Under the pieces are notes generated by a model. The model ran no database searches and was not told the DNA's origin. It saw nothing but the letters and a program-made list of their open reading frames with translations. A stretch of 16,029 nucleotides of DNA. It comes from Pseudomonadota bacterium (lineage in GTDB: Bacteria; Pseudomonadota; Gammaproteobacteria; Pseudomonadales; Pseudohongiellaceae). The position numbers and the translations under genes are program-made. The stretch covers positions 1 to 16,029 of the forward strand of contig JADFOC010000007.1 of NCBI GenBank assembly GCA_022563075.1, read 5' to 3'. This document shows, one piece after another, positions 3,363 to 15,183 of the stretch (position 1 is the first letter of the stretch; each line of letters opens with the position of its first letter).

Positions 3363-4145
3363 TCAGGTGGATCCGCGTTTTGGGCCTCGCAGTAGCGCCC
3401 AGAGATTACTGCTGGCCAGCACACTGATTAGTAGCACGATGAGGGAAAAGCTAAACCATTGAACTGCATAGGATAAATTCTGATTTACGTCAGCATATAC
3501 CGCTGGCCAGTGACGAACCAGGGCGCCTGGTTGGTCAGCAGTCAGCCGCACCTCGAAAGGAAACAACGGTTCACCGAGGATTTCTGCTATTACATCGATT
3601 TCCAGGCTACGCATGCGCAGCGGCCAAACTGTGGCATCGATCTGACTGGAGATGATCCGTGCATTTGCGGCCGGCACAAAGATTTGTGCGCTAATTTCCA
3701 CCCGACCTGAAACCGGTCGCAAGTATGGGGGTGTATCAGGTGGCAAGATCCCGCTGGTCCAGCCACGGCTAATGAGCACTAACTGATCGTTACTGCTGAG
3801 CCGAAACGGCGTTACCACGCCATAGCCAATCAGTCCTTCGAAGAATTCAGCCAGTAATAGAATCGTGCGGTCGTTGACAAATTCGCCCCGTAGCGTGACA
3901 TGCCTATTCTGTAGCTCGGGATTTGCTCGATGCAGATGACCCGCCGGAATGTCTTCGATGGCACCGGCGTGGTCTCTCAATTCCACTTCGAGTGCTTGTT
4001 GGACTTCGACCTTCTCCGCCGCCCGCTGCAACTGCCAGACACCGAGGCGGGCAAAGGCGGCGACGGTAATGATCACACACAGTGCAACCAGCCAATTCAC
4101 CCGAATGTGGAAACTGCGAAGACTGAATTCGGCGCGAAGTTGCAT
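3363..4145 (-). CDS. surf1: SURF1 family cytochrome c oxidase assembly protein
   Basis: This 260-residue inner-membrane protein has the SURF1/Shy1 layout. The first membrane helix is at about 17-34, followed directly by the family signature RLGVWQLQRAAEK. A large periplasmic domain contains RHVTLRGEF and LISRGWTSG. It closes with NLSYAVQWFSFSLIVLLISVL, the conserved last helix. SURF1 proteins help assemble haem-copper oxidases, probably by supplying haem a to subunit I. Bacterial copies usually lie in a cox gene cluster. Here no oxidase subunit, ctaG or haem A synthase gene is within the window, so it is a detached copy. The start ATG at 4143-4145 has only a weak GGGG-type site upstream. The adjoining leftward monooxygenase gene starts 216 bases beyond its stop and probably has its own promoter. 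Confidence 0.9.
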   Translation of the reverse strand: MQLRAEFSLRSFHIRVNWLVALCVIITVAAFARLGVWQLQRAAEKVEVQQALEVELRDHAGAIEDIPAGHLHRANPELQNRHVTLRGEFVNDRTILLLAEFFEGLIGYGVVTPFRLSSNDQLVLISRGWTSGILPPDTPPYLRPVSGRVEISAQIFVPAANARIISSQIDATVWPLRMRSLEIDVIAEILGEPLFPFEVRLTADQPGALVRHWPAVYADVNQNLSYAVQWFSFSLIVLLISVLASSNLWALLRGPKRGST

Positions 4146-6499: not shown

Positions 6500-6663
6500 G
6501 AATGTACTCCAAACTCCAGCTTGCTCTATATCCTAGCGATATTGGGGCGAGGGAGTATTCATGTCAACATTAAATCCGCTAAGCGGCAGGCAAAATGCCA
6601 TAGCCATAGGGTGAAGATATAGTAAGATACAGGCAGCGAAAAATAACAATGACGGAGACACGT

Positions 6664-7485
6664 ATGGCAACCATCCGACAAAAGCTGTTTCATCCCGTTT
6701 CAAGCATGCTGCTGCTAATGCTTTTTCTCGCGAGCAATCTACAGGCGGCGGCAGGCGATGGCATTCCACGCACCGCCGATGGTAACGCCGATTTCAATGG
6801 CATCTGGCAGGCTATTACCAGCGCCAACTGGAATATCGAGCCGCATGCAGCGGATTTTGGACCGGTGGTTGAGTTGGGTGCTATTGGTGCGATCCCGGCG
6901 GGGCTGGGTATCGTGGAGGGCGGTGAGATTCCCTATACGGCTGCCGGGCGGCAGCAACAGCAGGCCAACCAAGCCGATTGGTTGGCGCTCGATCCAGTGG
7001 TCAAATGTTATATGCCCGGTGTTCCCCGTGCTAATTACATGCCGTTTCCTTTTCAGATAATACAATCTCCCGAACACGTGGTTGTGGCCTATGAATTTGC
7101 CAGTGCCAGCCGCATCGTTTACATGAACCAGCCTGATTTTGAGGCACCGATCTTTAGCTGGATGGGTCACGCCAGAGGGCACTTCGAGGGAGATACCCTG
7201 GTTATCGATGTGACCGATCAAGTTCCAGATACCTGGTTTGATCATGCCGGCAATCATCATTCCGATGCGCTACGGGTGACCGAACGCTATACCCATCTCG
7301 GCCCCAATACCTTGATGTATGAGGCTACCATGGAAGATCCCAATACCTACACCAGGCCATGGACGGTGAAGTTTCCACTGTACCGGCGTCTGGACGAAAA
7401 TATGCAGTTGTTGGAATTCAAATGCGTAGAGTTTACCGAAGAATTAATTTACGGCCACTTACGTAAAGGCGCAGACAGTGAATAG
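6664..7485 (+). CDS. Secreted protein of a widespread uncharacterised family (first of a pair)
   Basis: 273 residues from the ATG at 6664, which has GGAG 6 bases upstream. The ATG 15 bases earlier (6649) lacks a good site. A Sec signal peptide spans about residues 1-29 (SSMLLLMLFLASNLQAAA). The mature protein starts with TADGNADFNGIWQ and later has FPFQIIQSPEHVVVAYEF, WMGHARGHFEGDTLVIDV, RVTERYTHLGPNTLMYEATMEDP and a last LLEFKCVEF. I know this set of blocks from many secreted proteins of Acidobacteria and Proteobacteria, but no function has been shown to my knowledge. The two Cys (in VVKCYMPG and EFKCVEF) could form a disulfide. It overlaps the next gene, a distant paralogue, by 8 bases, so the two are co-translated and probably act together outside the inner membrane. 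Confidence 0.85.
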   Translation: MATIRQKLFHPVSSMLLLMLFLASNLQAAAGDGIPRTADGNADFNGIWQAITSANWNIEPHAADFGPVVELGAIGAIPAGLGIVEGGEIPYTAAGRQQQQANQADWLALDPVVKCYMPGVPRANYMPFPFQIIQSPEHVVVAYEFASASRIVYMNQPDFEAPIFSWMGHARGHFEGDTLVIDVTDQVPDTWFDHAGNHHSDALRVTERYTHLGPNTLMYEATMEDPNTYTRPWTVKFPLYRRLDENMQLLEFKCVEFTEELIYGHLRKGADSE

Positions 7486-8473
7486 GAAGTTGTTAAATAA
7501 TCTACCTGGCACCTTATTGGTTTTGTTAGGCATTTCCTGTTCGAGCCTTGTATTTGCCCAGGCCGAAGATTGGCGACTTACCTACACGGCAGATGGCCAT
7601 CCAGACTTTCAGGGAGTGTGGGCCAACAATAGCATTACTCCTCTGGAGAGAGCAGAGGGGTTCGAGAACCGTGAAACCCTCACCGAAGAAGAATACGCCC
7701 GCCTGCAGGCGGGCGTAGCAAAGATTATTTCCGGTGGGGGAGACGCGCAGTTTGGTGATGGGTTTTTTGCGGCACTGGTGAGCGGCGAAGTCGAGTCTTA
7801 TGATCCAAGTACTGGTAACTACGATCAGACCTGGATGTCTGACAGAAATCTAGAAAACAGAACCTCCCTGATAGTCTATCCTTTGGACGGTAAACTGCCA
7901 GCCTACACCGACGTGGCGCAAGCAAAAATCGACGCTCGCATCGAACATGTGGAAGCCCATCCTGCCGATTCATGGACCGATCGACCCCTGCAAGAACGCT
8001 GCATTACCTACGGGATGCCTTATTTGTTGGCGGGTTACAACAGTTACTATCAAATCGTGCAGAGCAAGGAGCACGTGGCTATCATTCAGGAGATGATCCA
8101 TGACGTGCGGGTAATCCCACTGGTGCCTAAACCTCATATCGACGAAAAGATCAGATTGTGGCACGGCGATTCCCGTGGTTATTGGGATGGTGAGACCCTG
8201 GTTATCGAAACCAAAAACTTTTCTGAGGCCAGCGAACTGAAAGGATCGGGAGGAAACAGGTATTTCATCGAGCGGCTTACCCGCACGGCTCGAGATAATT
8301 TGCGCTATCAATTTACCATCGAAGATGAGAGCACCTGGATTTCCCCCTGGACTGCGATCATCAACTATAGTAGTAGTCCTGACCCCATATTCGAGTATGC
8401 TTGCCACGAAGGAAATTACGGCCTCTCTGGCATCTTGTCTGGCCATAGAGCTCAGGAGAGAGCGGCTCAATAA
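7478..8473 (+). CDS. Secreted protein of the same uncharacterised family (second of the pair)
   Basis: 331 residues beginning at a GTG inside the end of the previous gene, with a modest AAAGG site upstream. The start gives a good Sec signal peptide (PGTLLVLLGISCSSLVFAQ). It shares with its neighbour TADGHPDFQGVW, YYQIVQSKEHVAIIQEM, HGDSRGYWDGETLVIET, LRYQFTIEDESTWISPWTAII and FEYACHEGNYG. It also has an insertion of about 60 residues in the N-terminal half (ENRETLTEEEYARLQ and the segment after it) absent from the shorter partner; this longer form is itself a common version of the family. No catalytic motif is known. The operon ends at the hairpin at 8513-8537, which separates it from the motor operon that follows. 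Confidence 0.85.
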   Translation: MNRKLLNNLPGTLLVLLGISCSSLVFAQAEDWRLTYTADGHPDFQGVWANNSITPLERAEGFENRETLTEEEYARLQAGVAKIISGGGDAQFGDGFFAALVSGEVESYDPSTGNYDQTWMSDRNLENRTSLIVYPLDGKLPAYTDVAQAKIDARIEHVEAHPADSWTDRPLQERCITYGMPYLLAGYNSYYQIVQSKEHVAIIQEMIHDVRVIPLVPKPHIDEKIRLWHGDSRGYWDGETLVIETKNFSEASELKGSGGNRYFIERLTRTARDNLRYQFTIEDESTWISPWTAIINYSSSPDPIFEYACHEGNYGLSGILSGHRAQERAAQ

Positions 8474-8512
8474 CATAGAATGAGGTCGAATATGGTCACC
8501 AAACTGTGTTAT

Positions 8513-8537
8513 AAACCCGCTCTCATGCGGGTTTTTT
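8513..8537 (+). terminator. Intrinsic terminator after the secreted-protein pair
   Basis: AACCCGC (8514-8520) pairs with GCGGGTT (8527-8533) around the loop TCTCAT and runs into TTTTTT. It lies 40 bases past the stop of the 7478-8473 gene. It isolates the next operon, whose promoter must therefore lie within or after the hairpin, or be fed by read-through. Confidence 0.88.
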
Positions 8538-8573
8538 AGCGGTGGTAAGTACCGGACTATTGAGGGTCCCTAG

Positions 8574-9803
8574 ATGGATGTTTTGAGCGATTTGACCACA
8601 ATTACCTGGACCCTGGTTATTTCCATGCTCTTGCTGATTGGTTATTTTCATGGTCCCAGTTATTCAAAACAGACTGTGCGAAGTGCACCTTCGATTCTCA
8701 CTAGTCTTGGTATCTTCGGAACATTTCTAGGGATTGCACTTGGATTAATGCACTTCGATAGCAACAATATCGAAGCCAGTGTTCCGGCAATAATCGAGGG
8801 GCTGGGTGTTGCAGTGTGGTCTTCTATAGTAGGGATACTTGGCGCCTTGAGTATTCGGATTCGCGACACGTTTAAATCTATTAGGAAGGAGTCAAATTCA
8901 GAGCAAAACGTGGCCACAGTCACTGATCTAAACAACGCCATCGGTAATTTAAACGATAATCTGGATCAGCTTCGAAGTGAGAGTAAAGCCAATGCTCAAG
9001 CATTGTTGGAATCAAGTCGCAGCTATCAGGAGCATATGGTCAATGCCAATACGGACGCATTGACAATCGCATTGGCCACGGTAATGACTGAATTCAATAG
9101 TCGCATCGAAGTGCAATATGGTGAAAATTTCAAGAAATTCAACGAAGCTCTTGGGCATCTGTTGCAGTGGCAACAATCTTATTCCGGTCAGTTGGATGCC
9201 ATGATGAAGGCGCAGCAGACCAGTATCGAAGTCATCGATCATGCGAGCCAGTCCTACGAGAAAATGATCGCCCATTCAAAAGAGTTTAATCGGGTTGCCG
9301 CTTCACTCGGTGAATTATTAGGCGGACTGGAACAGCAAACCAGCAATATGGAGGGTTACATTTCTGGTCTGTCGTGCCTGGTAGGTCAGGCTTCGGAAGG
9401 CTTGCCGGCGCTGAGTGATTATGTCACTGAGTTAACCGTCAAACTCACCGCGAGTATCGAACAGAATAACGAGAGCCTGACCCAGATTCTCAGTAAGGCA
9501 GCCAGCGATATCTCTGTTACCGTGGAACAGGTAACTCAGAGCTTGGCCGCATCTGTGAATCAGGCACACAGCGGTCTGGCAGAACATGTGGAGGCAATGA
9601 CTAACAAGACCAACGCCCACATGCAACTGCTGGACCAATCTATGGAGAAGGAATTAACCCAGGCTTTGCGGACATTTGGCTATCAGTTAACTGCCTTGTC
9701 TGAAAAGTTTGTCAATGACTATACGCCTCTCACCGACAGACTACGCGAACTCTTAAGCCTGGCTGAACATCAATCTGGACAACAGACACAAACCGTCAAG
9801 TAA
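8574..9803 (+). CDS. ZorA-like MotA/TolQ/ExbB proton-channel protein with long helical tail
   Basis: 409 residues; the ATG has GAGGG 7 bases upstream. Three membrane helices are visible at about 9-26, 41-59 (ILTSLGIFGTFLGIALGLM) and 76-94 (GLGVAVWSSIVGILGALSI). The second and third, with the linker FDSNNIEASVPAIIEG between them, match the MotA/TolQ/ExbB core as it appears in ZorA: Gly-Thr-Phe-Leu-Gly in the helix and a short loop before the last helix. Residues 95-409 are almost wholly predicted helix, rich in Gln, Ser, Asn and Leu and lacking Pro for long stretches, with repeated units such as ASDISVTVEQVTQSLAASV. In ZorA proteins such a tail forms an intracellular rod below the motor. This tail is shorter than I remember for E. 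coli ZorA. It starts the four-gene operon and would form the stator channel with the next protein. Confidence 0.75.
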   Translation: MDVLSDLTTITWTLVISMLLLIGYFHGPSYSKQTVRSAPSILTSLGIFGTFLGIALGLMHFDSNNIEASVPAIIEGLGVAVWSSIVGILGALSIRIRDTFKSIRKESNSEQNVATVTDLNNAIGNLNDNLDQLRSESKANAQALLESSRSYQEHMVNANTDALTIALATVMTEFNSRIEVQYGENFKKFNEALGHLLQWQQSYSGQLDAMMKAQQTSIEVIDHASQSYEKMIAHSKEFNRVAASLGELLGGLEQQTSNMEGYISGLSCLVGQASEGLPALSDYVTELTVKLTASIEQNNESLTQILSKAASDISVTVEQVTQSLAASVNQAHSGLAEHVEAMTNKTNAHMQLLDQSMEKELTQALRTFGYQLTALSEKFVNDYTPLTDRLRELLSLAEHQSGQQTQTVK

Positions 9804-9812
9804 AACCTGCAC

Positions 9813-10514
9813 ATGCTAAGTGACGAATTCGAACTGGAAGCCGAAGAACACTGGATAGCCGTTAGTGACTTGATGAGCGGCTTGATGATGTTGTTCCTGC
9901 TCATCTCCACCATGTACCTGGTCATCGTCGAAAGAAAGAATCAGGAGATCGAAAGGGTGGTGGTCCTTTACGAAGATCTTCGCGAAGAGCTATACCGTGA
10001 TTTGCAGACGGAGTTCGGCGACGATCTGGCATTATGGGGAGCGGAACTTGGGGAAGATCTCAAAATCAGATTCACCAACACCGAACTTCTGTTTGAGGAA
10101 GGGGAGTCGAATCTAAAACCAGAGTTCGGCGTTATTCTCGCCGATTTTTTCCCGCGTTACCTGGTAATCCTTAGCTCCGAAAAATACCGCGACGAAATTC
10201 TGGAAGTAAGAATAGAAGGCCATACTTCCAGTTCCTGGTCACTGGCCAGAGACAGTGATGATGCGTATCTGCTCAACATGGCATTGTCGCAGGAAAGAAC
10301 CCGAACGACCTTGGGCTATATCCTGGGACTGGACAGTGTCGCTCACGAAAAGCAGTGGCTGAGGCAGCGCCTCACTGCCAATGGACTTTCTTCATCACAA
10401 TTGATCATCGGAGATGATGGTGCGGAGGATGCTGATCTCTCCCGCCGCGTGGAGTTTGTGGTGGTGACCGACGCCGAGACTCGACTTTTGACGATACTGC
10501 AAGAAATCAGGTAG
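9813..10514 (+). CDS. ZorB-like protein: membrane helix plus OmpA/MotB-like peptidoglycan-binding domain
   Basis: 233 residues starting 9 bases after the previous stop, with no strong ribosome site, suggesting translational coupling. The short cytoplasmic N-terminus leads into one helix at about 21-38 (MSGLMMLFLLISTMYLVIV). Asp19 in AVSDLMSG stands where MotB and ZorB carry the proton-accepting Asp. A charged linker (about 39-80) precedes a C-terminal OmpA-like domain with LLFEEGESNLKPEF, VRIEGHTSSSW (usually GHTD in OmpA/MotB), NMALSQERTRTTLGYIL and SRRVEFVVV. The GHTSS-W and NM-LSQ-RTR forms are what I remember from ZorB-type proteins rather than flagellar MotB. The domain would anchor the motor to peptidoglycan while the Asp drives rotation of the partner. 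No flagellar, Tol or Ton genes are near, so a flagellar or Tol role is unlikely. Confidence 0.78.
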   Translation: MLSDEFELEAEEHWIAVSDLMSGLMMLFLLISTMYLVIVERKNQEIERVVVLYEDLREELYRDLQTEFGDDLALWGAELGEDLKIRFTNTELLFEEGESNLKPEFGVILADFFPRYLVILSSEKYRDEILEVRIEGHTSSSWSLARDSDDAYLLNMALSQERTRTTLGYILGLDSVAHEKQWLRQRLTANGLSSSQLIIGDDGAEDADLSRRVEFVVVTDAETRLLTILQEIR

Positions 10515-10523
10515 ATCACTGAG

Positions 10524-11108
10524 ATGGAATTACTGGATTTTACCAAGTTCGAAGCGTTCAATGACTTGCGGGAAAAAATGGGTGCCAAGCAGCTTGGCTA
10601 CTTTGAGCTATTCGATCCATCGATTCATCTTACCGGCATCGAACGGTCGGAGTTGGAGAAGCTTGGGGTATTGTTAAAACCTGCCGAGTTAAGAGTTCTG
10701 CCTGACAAGACACTCGCACTTAAGAATAGTCGAGTGCTGGTTTACAATCCTGATGAAAACTGGTATCGAAGCCGTCGGCAATATCCCACCTACCATGTTG
10801 CCATGTGTGCTCAACTCGAGGAAATAACAAGCGAGCAGCCTGGTCAGGAATTGTTGGTTACCACCAGGCTCGATGATGAATATCAGCTGGTGAAAATACG
10901 ACCAAGCGGAGAGGTCAGCATGGTGGCCCATGGTTTCGTGGTGTGCAAACACTGTCTGCACGCACTGCGCTACAAAGACTATGATGAATTTCGCAATCGG
11001 CGCCGTGGCTACAGCCTGCAAGTATTGAGTAATTTTAGCCTGAAAGAATTCTACCGATTCTATCAGCAATATCCGCTCAGTTTTGGTGGTCGGCGAGAGC
11101 CTGAGTAA
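10524..11108 (+). CDS. Small zinc-site protein of the motor operon; possible nuclease-less relative of ZorE
   Basis: 194 residues, starting 9 bases after the ZorB-like stop. No signal peptide or membrane helix is present, so it should be cytoplasmic. Four residues make a likely zinc site: His91 and Cys95 in YHVAMCAQLEE, then Cys141 and Cys144 in FVVCKHCLHALRYKDY. The site is followed by the amphipathic segment FSLKEFYRFYQQYPL. From memory, this order (Y-H-x3-C, about 45 residues, C-x2-C-L, then F-x-L-x-E-F) resembles the N-terminal part of a group of HNH endonucleases, including the kind found in type II Zorya. No HNH motif follows: the protein ends soon after the amphipathic segment. It may therefore be a sensor or adaptor without catalytic activity, or belong to a separate family sharing the zinc fold. 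The link to ZorE is recall-based and uncertain. Confidence 0.7.
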   Translation: MELLDFTKFEAFNDLREKMGAKQLGYFELFDPSIHLTGIERSELEKLGVLLKPAELRVLPDKTLALKNSRVLVYNPDENWYRSRRQYPTYHVAMCAQLEEITSEQPGQELLVTTRLDDEYQLVKIRPSGEVSMVAHGFVVCKHCLHALRYKDYDEFRNRRRGYSLQVLSNFSLKEFYRFYQQYPLSFGGRREPE

Positions 11109-11111
11109 TTC

Positions 11112-11678
11112 ATGACCAGCCTCGCCCAGTTTGATGCGCGCTACGATCCGCATGAAGACCGTATACTCTTGCGCATAACCAACACCGATGAAGAGGAATT
11201 TAGACTTTGGCTGACGCGCCGACTAACCCATTCCATAATCACCGATCTCAAAACCAAATCCAGTGCCTATCGCCTCAGAAATGCAGTGAGCGAGGACACG
11301 CTAACTGCAGCTGAAGGAGAAATTACACGGGCAAGCTCTGCGCCCCGCGCGAGTAGCGCGGAGGCGGTCATACAAGCCGAATTTGAACAGCAAGCCACCG
11401 CGGGGCAACTAAAATTCGACAGCAAATTCAAACCCGGGGAAAGCTATCCGCTGGGAGAAGCAGGCCTCCTGGTTGGTAAAGTCAATTTTAAAGCAAATGC
11501 AAACGGACCAGGGTCGCACGCTTTAAGCTTCTATCCGGTGAAGGGGGCAGGCATTACCATTGGCGTATCGGTAGAATTTTTACATTCCATTTTTGAAATT
11601 CTTGAGCGAGTGAGTAAATCGGCGGAGTGGGGCTTCGTCTCCTCTTCTCAATTACAAAATACTGCAACACTGCAATAA
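11112..11678 (+). CDS. Unrecognised small cytoplasmic protein, last gene of the motor operon
   Basis: 188 residues; the ATG follows the previous stop by 3 bases, with GAG 6 bases upstream. I do not recognise a named domain. The N-terminal block (about 6-45), FDARYDPHEDRILLRITNTD then EFRLWLTRRL, looks like a compact conserved module that I have seen in unnamed proteobacterial proteins. A middle stretch (about 60-98) is rich in Ala, Ser and Glu and probably helical or flexible. The C-terminal part (about 100-172) alternates short hydrophobic strands (AGLLVGKVNFKANA, GITIGVSVEFL) and ends in the amphipathic helix LHSIFEILERVSKSAEW. There is no signal peptide, membrane helix, nuclease or nucleotide-binding motif. 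Its tight position in the operon suggests a role in the same complex, perhaps capping the ZorA-like tail or acting as effector; that is inference. Confidence 0.7.
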   Translation: MTSLAQFDARYDPHEDRILLRITNTDEEEFRLWLTRRLTHSIITDLKTKSSAYRLRNAVSEDTLTAAEGEITRASSAPRASSAEAVIQAEFEQQATAGQLKFDSKFKPGESYPLGEAGLLVGKVNFKANANGPGSHALSFYPVKGAGITIGVSVEFLHSIFEILERVSKSAEWGFVSSSQLQNTATLQ

Positions 11679-11680
11679 GC

Positions 11681-11686
11681 TATAAT
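11681..11686 (+). promoter_or_regulatory. Candidate -10 element for the nitronate monooxygenase gene
   Basis: A perfect TATAAT lies 2 bases after the stop of the motor operon and 32 bases before the next ATG. No good -35 hexamer is found 16-18 bases upstream, so it is only a candidate. If active, the nitronate monooxygenase gene would be a separate unit with a short leader. Confidence 0.3.
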
Positions 11687-11718
11687 CTTGCATTGCATAT
11701 ATTCTCTTTGGTGGGTGC

Positions 11719-12846
11719 ATGAATTCTCCTTTGTGTGAGATGTTGGGAATCGATTTTCCACTTGTTGCCTTCAGTCACTGCCGCGATGTAGTGATTGAAG
11801 TCTCGAAGGCCGGTGGGCTAGGTGTGTTAGGGGCAGCACGCTACAGTGCGGAGGAACTGGAAATCGAGTTGAGCTGGATCGATGAACATATCGGCAATAT
11901 GCCCTACGGCGTCGATCTCATTGCGCCAACCAGCATGGCGGTAACTGAAGAAAATGCCGATGTGGAAAAAATCCGAGAAAGAATCCCGCAAGGTCATTTC
12001 AAGTTTGCGGCAGACATCTTGGAAAAGCACGGAATCGATGCCACCGATGTTTATTCGCAACAATATAAACGAAATTCATTTCTTACCCAAGATCGAGCCG
12101 GCAATATTATCGATGTGGTATTTTCTCATCCGATCAAGTTGATTGCCAATGCTCTGGGTGTGCCACCGCCATACATGATTGAAATGGGCAGGCAGCACGG
12201 TGTCGTCACGGCTGCCTTAATTGGGACACAGGAGCACGCCATCAAACAAGCACAGGCGGGTGTCGATATCGTAGTCGCGTCAGGTACCGAGGCCGGTGGA
12301 CATTGCGGAGATGTACCAACGATGGTTCTACTGCCCGAGGTTTGCAGCGCCTTAGAGGAGTCAGGTATACCAGTTTTGGCCGCCGGCGGTATCGTTACAG
12401 GTAGACAGATGGCGGCGTGTATGGCGATGGGCGCTGCCGGTGCCTGGACTGGCTCGGTCTGGTTAACCTCCGCCGAGTCTGATACATCGCCGGTACTCAA
12501 GGAAAAAATGTTGCAAGCTTCTTCACGAGAAACGGTTCGCTCGAAATCTCGTACTGGCAAGCATTCCAGGCAACTGCGCTCTCCCTGGACCGATGCCTGG
12601 GAAATGGATACCGCCCCGAAACCACTGCCCATGCCGCTGCAATCTCAGGTAACCGAGATTCCCTTAGCGAGAGTGACTAAACTGGCCGAAGGGGGTCACG
12701 CAGGCGCACGTCAGCTGGCGACGTCCTGGGTAGGGCAGGGGGTTGGATTGATGAAAAGCAGCCAGTCGGTGAAAACCATCGTGTACGAGTTCATGCAGGA
12801 CTATCTTGCCGCCGCCGAGCGCTTACAGAGTACGTTGGATGACTAA
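11719..12846 (+). CDS. Nitronate monooxygenase (2-nitropropane dioxygenase family, FMN-dependent)
   Basis: 375 residues, a typical length for this branch of the family. The fold is a TIM barrel binding FMN. It opens with LCEMLGIDFPLVAF and SKAGGLGVLGAARYSAEEL. The family motif ASGTEAGGHCGDVPTMVLLPEV (about 188-209) includes His195 at the position usually assigned to catalysis, and the phosphate-binding part is IPVLAAGGIVTGRQM with GAAGAWTGSVWL (about 239-249). Such enzymes oxidise alkyl nitronates to carbonyl compounds and nitrite; some relatives are NADH:quinone reductases, and motifs alone cannot separate them. It has a GGTGGG-type ribosome site. It follows the motor operon by 40 bases on the same strand, but its function gives no reason to place it in that system. 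Its end faces the leftward VOC gene with 25 bases between. Confidence 0.88.
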   Translation: MNSPLCEMLGIDFPLVAFSHCRDVVIEVSKAGGLGVLGAARYSAEELEIELSWIDEHIGNMPYGVDLIAPTSMAVTEENADVEKIRERIPQGHFKFAADILEKHGIDATDVYSQQYKRNSFLTQDRAGNIIDVVFSHPIKLIANALGVPPPYMIEMGRQHGVVTAALIGTQEHAIKQAQAGVDIVVASGTEAGGHCGDVPTMVLLPEVCSALEESGIPVLAAGGIVTGRQMAACMAMGAAGAWTGSVWLTSAESDTSPVLKEKMLQASSRETVRSKSRTGKHSRQLRSPWTDAWEMDTAPKPLPMPLQSQVTEIPLARVTKLAEGGHAGARQLATSWVGQGVGLMKSSQSVKTIVYEFMQDYLAAAERLQSTLDD

Positions 12847-13273: not shown

Positions 13274-14590
13274 TCAGCGATTTCTTTTTTCAAGCAGGGC
13301 TGGGCTAACTGCTTCGATGCCTACCAGAGCTAGTGTAATCAGTAAGGCCAATTGTGGGCCGAAGTGTGAATTTTCCGGAGAATACCATTCACCTGGAGAG
13401 TGAGATCCACCCCCATTACCACCGCCGGCTATGGTGATGGCAGGGATATTCAGTGACATCGGTACATTGGAATCGGTGCTGGAGATGCCCAATTCTCGCA
13501 GCTCGATGCCGATTTCATCGAATGCCAACGCCGCTATCTGCACGATAGGGCTCTCGGTGGCCGTTCGACCTGCCGGTCGATCACCGATCAGCTTGAACTC
13601 AACGCTAATCTCGCCATTATCCCAGCGCGCATTTTCTTCGGCGACGGCTGCCAATGCCTTGGCCTGTGTTTCCAGTTTTATTAGTGCTGCAGGATCGTTA
13701 GAGCGCATATCCAAGGTAAATACCGCATCGGCGGCAATGGAATTTACCGACGTGCCGCCAGCTACCGTGCCGATAGTAAAGGTGGTCTTCGGGAGAGCGG
13801 GGGTCTCAATTTCTGCGATCTTGGCAATAGCGCGGCCCATGGCATGTATCGCACTTGGCAGTCCGAACGCACCAAATGAATGGCCGCCTGGTCCACTGAA
13901 TTGGAATTCGAATCGACGACTGCCGGTACCGCCGCTGGTTATACGCCGCAGTCGCACGCCGTCGATGGAAACGAAGCCATCGATTTCCGGATGATCACGA
14001 AAAATTGCCTTGATGCCTCTGAGATCGCCTCGACCTTCCTCGCCCACATTGCCGGCAAACATGATATCGCCCACGGTTTCGATGCCACTTTCATTGAGTA
14101 CTTCTATTACCGAAAGCAAGGCGGTGAGTCCGCGAGCATCATCGCCAATACCCGGCGCATAGAATCGGCCATCGCGTAATTCGACTGTGGTATCCACTGC
14201 TTCTGGAAATACAGTGTCTAAATGGGCAGCAATCAACAGAGTCGGGCCATTGCCAGTTCCTTTGCGTACGCCGGTTACATTTCCTTCGGCATCTATCGAG
14301 GCATCGCTTAGCCCGATCTCCCGCATTCGCTCCAGGTAATAGGCGGCGCGTCTGGCTTCCATAAAGGGTGGCGCTGGAATTTCGGTGAGTCTGATTTGTT
14401 CCTGAATCGCCTCCGGTTCGCGAGCCTCTATCTGTTGTAGCGCGAGCTGCACACGTTCATCGTCGGTGATGAGTTGGAAGGCCTGACGTATCGATTTATC
14501 GATTGGCACCAGCGATTGATGCTGCTGGGTCATCGCCTTGCCGGAGCAAAGGATCAGTACCAGGGCGGCAATGATTAACCGGATTTTCAA
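13274..14590 (-). CDS. Secreted M20 family zinc metallopeptidase
   Basis: About 438 residues from a TTG at 14588-14590. This start gives a clean signal peptide (KIRLIIAALVLILCSGKAMT) and leaves 26 bases after the YkvA stop; a TTG one codon upstream is equally possible. The frame stays open to 14713, but that longer version would overlap the YkvA gene by 97 bases and bury the signal sequence. The M20 di-zinc core is complete: His123 and Asp125 (AAHLDTVFP), Asp150 (GIGDDARG), Glu184/Glu185 (VGEEG), Asp210 (SIDG) and the late His397 (GGGSHSPGEW). The dimerisation domain contains SGPGGHSFGAFG with His237. Family members cleave small peptides or acylated amino acids, so this one may process short peptides in the periplasm. 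The exact substrate is not readable from motifs. Confidence 0.87.
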   Translation of the reverse strand: MKIRLIIAALVLILCSGKAMTQQHQSLVPIDKSIRQAFQLITDDERVQLALQQIEAREPEAIQEQIRLTEIPAPPFMEARRAAYYLERMREIGLSDASIDAEGNVTGVRKGTGNGPTLLIAAHLDTVFPEAVDTTVELRDGRFYAPGIGDDARGLTALLSVIEVLNESGIETVGDIMFAGNVGEEGRGDLRGIKAIFRDHPEIDGFVSIDGVRLRRITSGGTGSRRFEFQFSGPGGHSFGAFGLPSAIHAMGRAIAKIAEIETPALPKTTFTIGTVAGGTSVNSIAADAVFTLDMRSNDPAALIKLETQAKALAAVAEENARWDNGEISVEFKLIGDRPAGRTATESPIVQIAALAFDEIGIELRELGISSTDSNVPMSLNIPAITIAGGGNGGGSHSPGEWYSPENSHFGPQLALLITLALVGIEAVSPALLEKRNR

Positions 14591-14616
14591 CAAGATTCTC
14601 GAGGCAAGTGACAATC

Positions 14617-15183
14617 CTATAGCAGCCGCAAGCGCCAACCGCGACCGCCAGTTCTTAGTCTGCGCCGCTCCCGCATGCGAGAATGTAACACCGCACGTTT
14701 GTCGGCTATCCAATCTTCTCGACCCACATGAGGGTCCAGGCCTAGATTGCGTCTACGGTTTTCCTCGGCGATACGGAATTGACAGAATTCCTGGTACATT
14801 TTTATTTCAACCGTGAGTTCCCGAATCACGATTTCGGCATAGATCGCGTCATCCAATAACCCAATGCCAGGAATATGATCGGGAATTACATCATCGGGGT
14901 CGACGAAGTAAACCAATGCGCCTCGAATACTATTACATTCTTCTTCGGTGAGTCGCCACTCCTCATCTCTAATCATGTTCAGTAAAATCTGCAGCTTGAA
15001 CAATCGATCTGAAATGAACGGAGGTAGTTCATGTTCTCTTGCTGCTTCGATCTTTTCGGCGGCCGCTTCTTCTATCTGGGTTGCGCTCTCTGCGTCTGCT
15101 ACCGTTAGCTTGCCCTTGTCTATGGCTTCCTGAAAGCTATCGAGATCTTCATCGCTAAGCGTGATTGTAATATCGAGAGGCAT
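14617..15183 (-). CDS. YkvA family (DUF1232) protein
   Basis: 188 residues; the ATG has AAGGG 8 bases upstream. The DUF1232 core is at about 87-122 (RGALVYFVDPDDVIPDHIPGIGLLDDAIYAEIVIREL), with the hallmark Y-F-x-x-P-x-D-x-I-P-D and G-L-L-D-D. Most family members are short, with the core in two membrane-like hairpins; here it sits in a longer, mostly charged protein. An acidic N-terminal region (about 8-52: DEDLDSFQEA, then a long Glu/Ala helix) precedes it, and a strongly Arg-rich tail (about 169-188) closes it. The function of YkvA proteins is unknown; membrane association is possible. The strong positive tail could contact lipid head groups or nucleic acid. It heads a probable leftward unit with the M20 peptidase and the VOC protein (gaps of 26 and 30 bases). 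Confidence 0.82.
   Translation of the reverse strand: MPLDITITLSDEDLDSFQEAIDKGKLTVADAESATQIEEAAAEKIEAAREHELPPFISDRLFKLQILLNMIRDEEWRLTEEECNSIRGALVYFVDPDDVIPDHIPGIGLLDDAIYAEIVIRELTVEIKMYQEFCQFRIAEENRRRNLGLDPHVGREDWIADKRAVLHSRMRERRRLRTGGRGWRLRLL

Follow-up and report, generated by a model that had tools for sequence, protein, structure and literature searches.

The window analysed here is a 16,029-nucleotide stretch of contig JADFOC010000007.1 from a gammaproteobacterium of the family Pseudohongiellaceae. It contains three adjacent genes, A, B and C (together ABC), which encode two Zorya-type motor subunits and a short relative of ZorE, the HNH nuclease effector of Zorya type II. In our reading, to which we assign a probability of about 0.55, ABC is a resident, mainly vertically inherited Zorya-II-like motor with an adaptor that corresponds to the N-terminal domain of ZorE (ZorE-N) and without its own nuclease, most likely serving an envelope-triggered, non-nucleolytic response and not a self-contained nuclease defence.

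A preliminary description of this DNA, made from the sequence alone, had proposed a Zorya-like motor operon of four co-oriented genes, the fourth being D. The open reading frames (ORFs), picked as the longest ORF by a script and not by a gene caller, do lie together on the forward strand with intergenic gaps of 9, 9 and 3 bases, as their coordinates confirm (Table 1). The place of D as a constant member of the operon did not hold.

The motor and its short ZorE-like partner

C is, as judged from its sequence, a stand-alone ZorE N-terminal domain in which the putative zinc site is kept and the HNH part is absent. Its match to the PADLOC profile of ZorE2 (E-value 1.7e-28) covers positions 3–180 of 282, the N-terminal part alone, which corrects a view of C as an unrelated small protein. 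No other PADLOC model was matched by C, nor any Pfam family at E-values up to 1, and its homologues carry the precomputed PF26739, which is probably the DUF8245 of the literature. C resembles the first 180 or so residues of ZorE and has the same H-C-C-C pattern. The residues H91, C95, C141 and C144 are invariant in 48 aligned rows, and one histidine and three cysteines are likewise invariant across both the short forms, which resemble C, and the long, HNH-containing forms. In the alignment to Escherichia coli ZorE, H91 corresponds to H90, and H90 and C94 are identical in 10/10 HNH-type and 43/43 short forms. According to excerpts of PMC13192584, the substitution H90A in ZorE abolishes Zorya II defence, and the N-terminal domain holds defence-relevant residues apart from the HNH. 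The HNH columns Y189, H226, K231 and N234 are gaps in 42–43 of the 43 aligned short C proteins. Pfam HNH models are weak tests in this family, being sub-threshold in two of four long ZorE proteins and absent in the other two. By its homology to ZorE, C would be expected to retain the recruited half and to lack the cutting half. The fold model of C (predicted local distance difference test, pLDDT, 82) gave no match in the PDB.

The preliminary description had stated that the genes beside the motor are neither ZorC or ZorD nor an HNH protein, and that no nuclease or helicase is encoded in the operon. Both statements stand: no such family was matched in the four genes other than ZorE2, and C ends before the HNH part of those profiles.

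The motor half is Zorya-like, as had been proposed. A is a MotA/TolQ/ExbB-type ZorA with a long cytoplasmic tail behind a MotA-like core and matches the PADLOC ZorA2 profile over nearly its full length (E-value 7.1e-92, positions 12–419 of 420). B is a MotB/OmpA-type ZorB with the channel aspartate, a peptidoglycan-binding domain and a ZorB2 match at 5.8e-86. In NCBIfam, ZorA2, ZorB2 and ZorE are matched by A, B and C, all below the curated cut-offs (135.5 of 700, 207.5 of 400 and 30.9 of 600 bits, respectively), that of ZorA2 being an equivalog cut-off. The closest solved chains of A and B both belong to 8VVI, the Sulfuricurvum kujiense ZorAB solved as type II (3.7e-42 for A, 9.3e-49 for B). 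D19 of B aligns with D21 of S. kujiense ZorB, named as the critical aspartate in the excerpts of PMC11890865, and the peptidoglycan-binding motif GHTSS is common to both proteins. In A, T50 and S83-S84 lie at channel positions and W82 lies within the last transmembrane helix. ABC shares with MotAB/PomAB, ExbBD and TolQR the ion-driven inner-membrane motor family, the channel aspartate and the hydroxyl residues. It differs from them in its long tail and ZorE-N partner, and the Pfam matches of A and B at E-values up to 1, including MotA_ExbB, OmpA and, for A, coiled-coil families, are all below the curated cut-offs.

Zorya types I (ZorABCD) and III (ZorABFG) also have a MotAB-like motor. The partners of type III are ZorF (DUF3348) and ZorG (DUF2894), as given in the available part of PMC8565338. 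A type III assignment, left open by the preliminary description, was rejected: the PADLOC scores of A for ZorA1 and ZorA3 are much weaker than for ZorA2, the best ZorA3 match being only 3.2e-6, and PADLOC found no ZorC, ZorD, ZorF or ZorG in the four genes.

Two features of ZorA were considered as marks of the short-C branch, the transmembrane tryptophan and a short tail. The pattern of the threonine with W[ST]S occurs in 46/46 short-C ZorA proteins and in 0/9 HNH-type ones, which show [IVTS]TS; the hydroxyls (the threonine with [ST]S) are present in all 46 and also in all nine. The length of ZorA is 400–457 amino acids (aa) in short-C systems, against 502–607 aa at six distinct HNH-type loci from genomes and 547–550 aa at three from plasmids. 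This at first clean distinction was broken by a tenth HNH-type ZorA, that of a Burkholderia locus (L122), which has 435 aa and the motif AFWAS. Tail length is therefore no strict mark of short-C systems, and since WAS occurs both in L122 and in S. kujiense, the tryptophan is not exclusive to them. S. kujiense ZorA (378 aa) has the same transmembrane tryptophan as A and differs in an alanine at the position of S83, as in the Burkholderia locus. The case for placing the S. kujiense motor in the short-C branch was weakened accordingly, its WAS being shared with an HNH-type locus and its place in the tree being unsure. As a side observation, L122 is a Burkholderia multivorans record which combines a short ZorA tail and WAS, as in S. 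kujiense ZorA, with an HNH-type effector.

In the ZorB tree, the 46 short-C and 11 HNH rows are split at one branch (98/97, 99% of bootstraps). When three long rows are left out and S. kujiense is added, 45 and 9 rows are split at 92/95 (98% of bootstraps); the tree program issued a long-branch warning, and S. kujiense itself lies on a long, unsure branch. The tree is unrooted, so that both a loss of the HNH part in this branch and its gain in Zorya II are possible.

Chromosomal site, distribution and context

Relatives were searched among 194 genomes, 84 of which, the window included, belong to the genus of the window. C was found in 37 of the 194: in the window, in 25 of the 83 other genus genomes and in 11 of the remainder. 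The 25 comprise 19 with near-complete C, one with an HNH-type protein (G040) and five with broken or remnant copies (G007, G016, G049, G058 and G079). In G079, an in-frame internal deletion has fused the beginning of A with the last part of C (L053, 9949–10458), a product of decay. Near-complete C is kept in 20 of the 84 genus genomes with the window counted. Such counts refer to near-complete C and not to intact operons, because A of G003 was read as 214 aa by the longest-ORF pick and the operon of G034 is cut by a contig edge. The HNH-type system of G040 (L063) consists of a 272-aa ZorE and a 502-aa ZorA; a short C was not found in G040.

Within the genus, ABC occupies one site, between the paralogous genes at its left border (7478–8473 and kin) and the M20 peptidase gene; D or the nitronate-monooxygenase-like gene also lies within it in some loci. 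The left-border gene family adjoins A in most genus loci and also adjoins most empty junctions. The SURF1 anchor was found in 75 of the 84 genomes, and 20 sites lacking ABC were chosen by hand from genomes whose contigs left enough room; two contigs ended early and 18 junctions were readable. All 18 are free of foreign cargo above 100 aa, with only the nitronate-monooxygenase-like gene before the M20 gene (the maps omit ORFs below 80 aa, and L151 has one unlabelled 91-aa ORF). At four junctions the left-border gene is missing too, together with the genes between it and SURF1. In L135 a stretch of 122 residues still resembles A (35% identity), and genes farther from the site vary between genomes (e.g., L140). 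On a tree built from four flanking genes, which includes no genome-wide markers and holds 49 loci (19 with ABC, 5 decayed and 25 with none), presence and absence require at least 12 changes, 10 of them forced by well-supported branches. Given the fixed site, these changes are most simply losses.

The genes themselves are constrained. The ratio of nonsynonymous to synonymous substitution rates (dN/dS) of A, B and C is 0.03–0.21 in the five genome pairs with computable dS, which identifies them as real genes under purifying selection. Of the 15 dS values obtained for these three genes, nine fall within the range of the flanking genes, three below and three above; the three high values (0.86–0.96, against 0.41–0.57 in the flanks) all come from the pair L043/L045. 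The median pairwise identity is 74% for A, 80% for B and 66% for C, and 62–84% for flanking genes.

D is a neighbour and not a part of the unit, because at one site ABC is seen without D and D without ABC. It matched nothing in PADLOC, Pfam (E-values up to 1), NCBIfam or the PDB sequences. D is matched in 24 of the 194 genomes, strongly (E-value below 1e-40) in 14, and the median pairwise identity of D is 53%. The poor fold model of D (pLDDT 70) has two beta3-alpha repeats and a weak likeness to Pur-alpha (best E-value 0.018, probabilities 0.16–0.75). Weaker relatives of D adjoin other genes in related genera. D was considered as a replacement effector of a four-gene system, since it starts 3 bases after C in the window and also follows C in five further genomes. 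Against this, only six of the 14 genomes with strong D have C, and in the other eight D occupies the ABC site without it, behind a member of the left-border gene family (L069–L076); 14 of the 20 genus genomes with near-complete C show no strong D, and no D match lies beside the oad-type loci described below. D was rejected as a constant part, and its role as the effector is very improbable.

ABC does not behave as a mobile defence system. A tblastn search of C against 72,556 plasmids gave two matches, at 29% and 23% identity, both of the HNH form (one is annotated as HNH, the other runs into an HNH frame), and 50,697 phage records gave none, so that short C was not found among the plasmids or phages searched. 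Plasmids do carry HNH-type systems. ZorB has matches in 21 plasmid records, and zorE was read in five: L123 and L125 are annotated as ZorE/HNH, L124 has the HNH columns, and two are the HNH-form matches of C. Among the phage records, ZorB had a single match, to an unverified faecal scaffold; the frames behind it there (618 and at least 787 codons) lack the ZorE motifs and in this differ from C. Ten flanking genes in the window gave no PADLOC match. The preliminary description had held that conservation at one syntenic place in nearly all genomes of the lineage, with no link to defence islands, would speak against its proposal. The single site and the lack of PADLOC matches in ten flanking genes were found, whereas near-universal presence was not, as the 20 of 84 show.

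Beyond the genus, 293 genomes sampled evenly from the order gave 33 matches: the window, 26 genomes with short C and 6 with the HNH type only, one of which (G355) was classed by its 279-aa frame alone. Among 398 genomes across the phylum there were six matches besides the window, all with frames of at least 293 aa, and an HNH stretch was present in 5/5 of those read. In the samples searched, short C was thus found only within the order of the window. The row pairs L110/L112, L045/L050 and L065/L066 are near-copies. One of the 26 short-C genomes (G156; L062 and L067) also carries an HNH-type Zorya II, so that the two kinds coexist there.

In 17 of the 26 short-C genomes outside the genus, A lies behind oadB of the oadGAB genes, which encode a sodium-pump oxaloacetate decarboxylase (OAD; oadB was identified by OAD_beta at 7.8e-155). 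The adjacency is direct in 15 genomes (families f2, f6, f7 and f35), with gaps of 13–259 bases; about 780 bases separate the genes in L060 (f17), and a 159-aa ORF in L061 (f39). Named loci with A directly behind oadB are those of Saccharospirillum MSK14-1, Reinekea blandensis and two Natronospirillum. The nine exceptions belong to f39 (eight) and f16 (one). None of eight HNH-type loci shows this adjacency, two contigs being short and two loci being near-copies in one genome (Fisher p 0.003, uncorrected for shared descent). The genus of the window points in the opposite direction: OAD beta occurs in 4/19 genomes with C against 35/64 others (Fisher p 0.017, uncorrected for relatedness; one sub-threshold match was scored as absent). 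In the open-licence literature, titles and abstract openings on Zorya/ZorAB and oad neighbours included none describing an ABC system.

Possible function and competing explanations

The motor architecture and the gating by peptidoglycan are known from solved relatives, and ZorAB recruits ZorE, a nicking effector, to the membrane on infection (PMC11890865, excerpts). By analogy with these relatives, five A and two B subunits would form an ion-driven motor with a cytoplasmic rod. A disturbance of the envelope would lead B to grip the peptidoglycan, ions would flow, and the rod would turn. As homology to ZorE suggests, C would be recruited by the motor, where it might engage DNA or another partner without cutting. 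Several points weigh against such a resident, non-nucleolytic response. The binding of C to DNA, metal or ZorA is a prediction, and a host nuclease may replace the missing HNH. In the genus, the link to oad fails as a functional dependence, OAD being less frequent in genomes with C. Descent matches that of the flanks only approximately, 6 of 15 dS values lying outside the flank range, and the repeated loss, with near-complete C in under a quarter of the genus, would also fit a costly defence.

A broader proposal, which we hold tentatively and at a little less than even odds, is that one branch of the Zorya motors is resident and has no defence role. In Pseudomonadales, ZorAB and a nuclease-free ZorE-N would serve the cell's own physiology, e.g., envelope-to-nucleoid signalling, and would be kept long at fixed loci beside core genes such as oadGAB and repeatedly lost. 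A conserved motor with a non-defence role, one of the options in the preliminary description, is a live one, and a strict placement in a known Zorya type does not hold.

Another explanation is an anti-phage Zorya without a nuclease, in which C, carried by the motor to the injection site, obstructs phage DNA or enlists a host nuclease, or in which an ion leak through the motor stops the cell. This is a real possibility, to which we nevertheless incline less than to its negation. The close kinship of A, B and C to Zorya II speaks for it, as do the loss and in-place decay expected of costly, conditionally useful genes and the importance of ZorE N-terminal residues for defence apart from the HNH (PMC13192584, excerpts). 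The same excerpts give HNH residues as needed for stand-alone Zorya II defence, and these are gone from C; the fixed sites, the flanks free of PADLOC matches and the lack of short C among plasmids and phages also argue against it. Variable contexts, islands or mobile elements are a usual, though not strict, trait of defence systems that ABC does not show.

An automatic caller might label the locus as ordinary Zorya type II. The gene order A-B-E is the same, ZorA and ZorB are homologous over nearly their full length, and in PADLOC the top profile is ZorA2 for A, ZorB2 for B and ZorE2 for C. C lacks the HNH nuclease, and D is unmatched. The HNH is the defining effector part of type II, and its columns are absent in the 43 aligned short C proteins. 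Together with the missed NCBIfam cut-offs and the separate ZorB branch, this makes an ordinary type II locus hardly credible. The fixed chromosomal sites and the usually shorter ZorA tail are further differences from type II. A sodium-powered motor functionally coupled to the OAD sodium pump is improbable. The idea was suggested by synteny, oadGAB lying upstream in 17/26 genomes, and T50, S83 and S84 fill the three positions at which sodium stators have threonines (PMC10374538, excerpts; motif-based mapping). The same hydroxyls are found in the HNH-type ZorA, the spacing between oadB and A permits separate promoters, and the opposite trend within the genus weakened the candidate.

To our knowledge, the transfer of the signal from the Zorya motor to its effector is unsettled. 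A natural motor with an adaptor but no nuclease separates signal transfer from cutting and opens this step to testing. A branch with no defence role would be a candidate as a source or sink of Zorya motors and would correct defence counts, in which automatic callers may include ABC as Zorya II. Should it defend the cell, it would show that a Zorya system can work with no nuclease of its own.

Other features of the window

Coordinates are collected in Table 1. A promoter scan of positions 8350–11800 gave three promoter-like sites, a number not above the count in shuffled sequences.

Table 1. Features of the ABC locus and its surroundings in the window.
Feature	Position	Strand	Assignment	Basis or remark
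A	8574..9803	+	ZorA2-like motor subunit, 409 aa	PADLOC PDLC00637, 8VVI ZorA matches
B	9813..10514	+	ZorB2-like, 233 aa, D19 and GHTSS	PADLOC PDLC00641, 8VVI ZorB matches
C	10524..11108	+	Stand-alone ZorE N-terminal domain, 194 aa, no HNH	PADLOC PDLC00643
Putative zinc-site stretch of C (codons H91 to C144)	10794..10955	+		Alignment to E. coli ZorE
D	11112..11678	+	188 aa, no family match	Neighbour, not part of the system
Left border gene	7478..8473	+	One of two tandem paralogues (other 6649–7485)	No Pfam match
Nitronate monooxygenase-like neighbour	11719..12846	+		PF03060 4.9e-44; variably present or absent at the site
Right border, M20 peptidase	13274..14713	-		PF01546 1e-18; borders filled and empty sites alike
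SURF1 gene	3363..4145	-		PF02104 5.1e-32; anchor for locating empty sites

The tandem paralogues at the left border (6649–8473) are present in one or two copies in relatives. A DUF1232 protein is encoded at 14617–15183 on the reverse strand, adjoining the M20 gene, and its presence varies among relatives.

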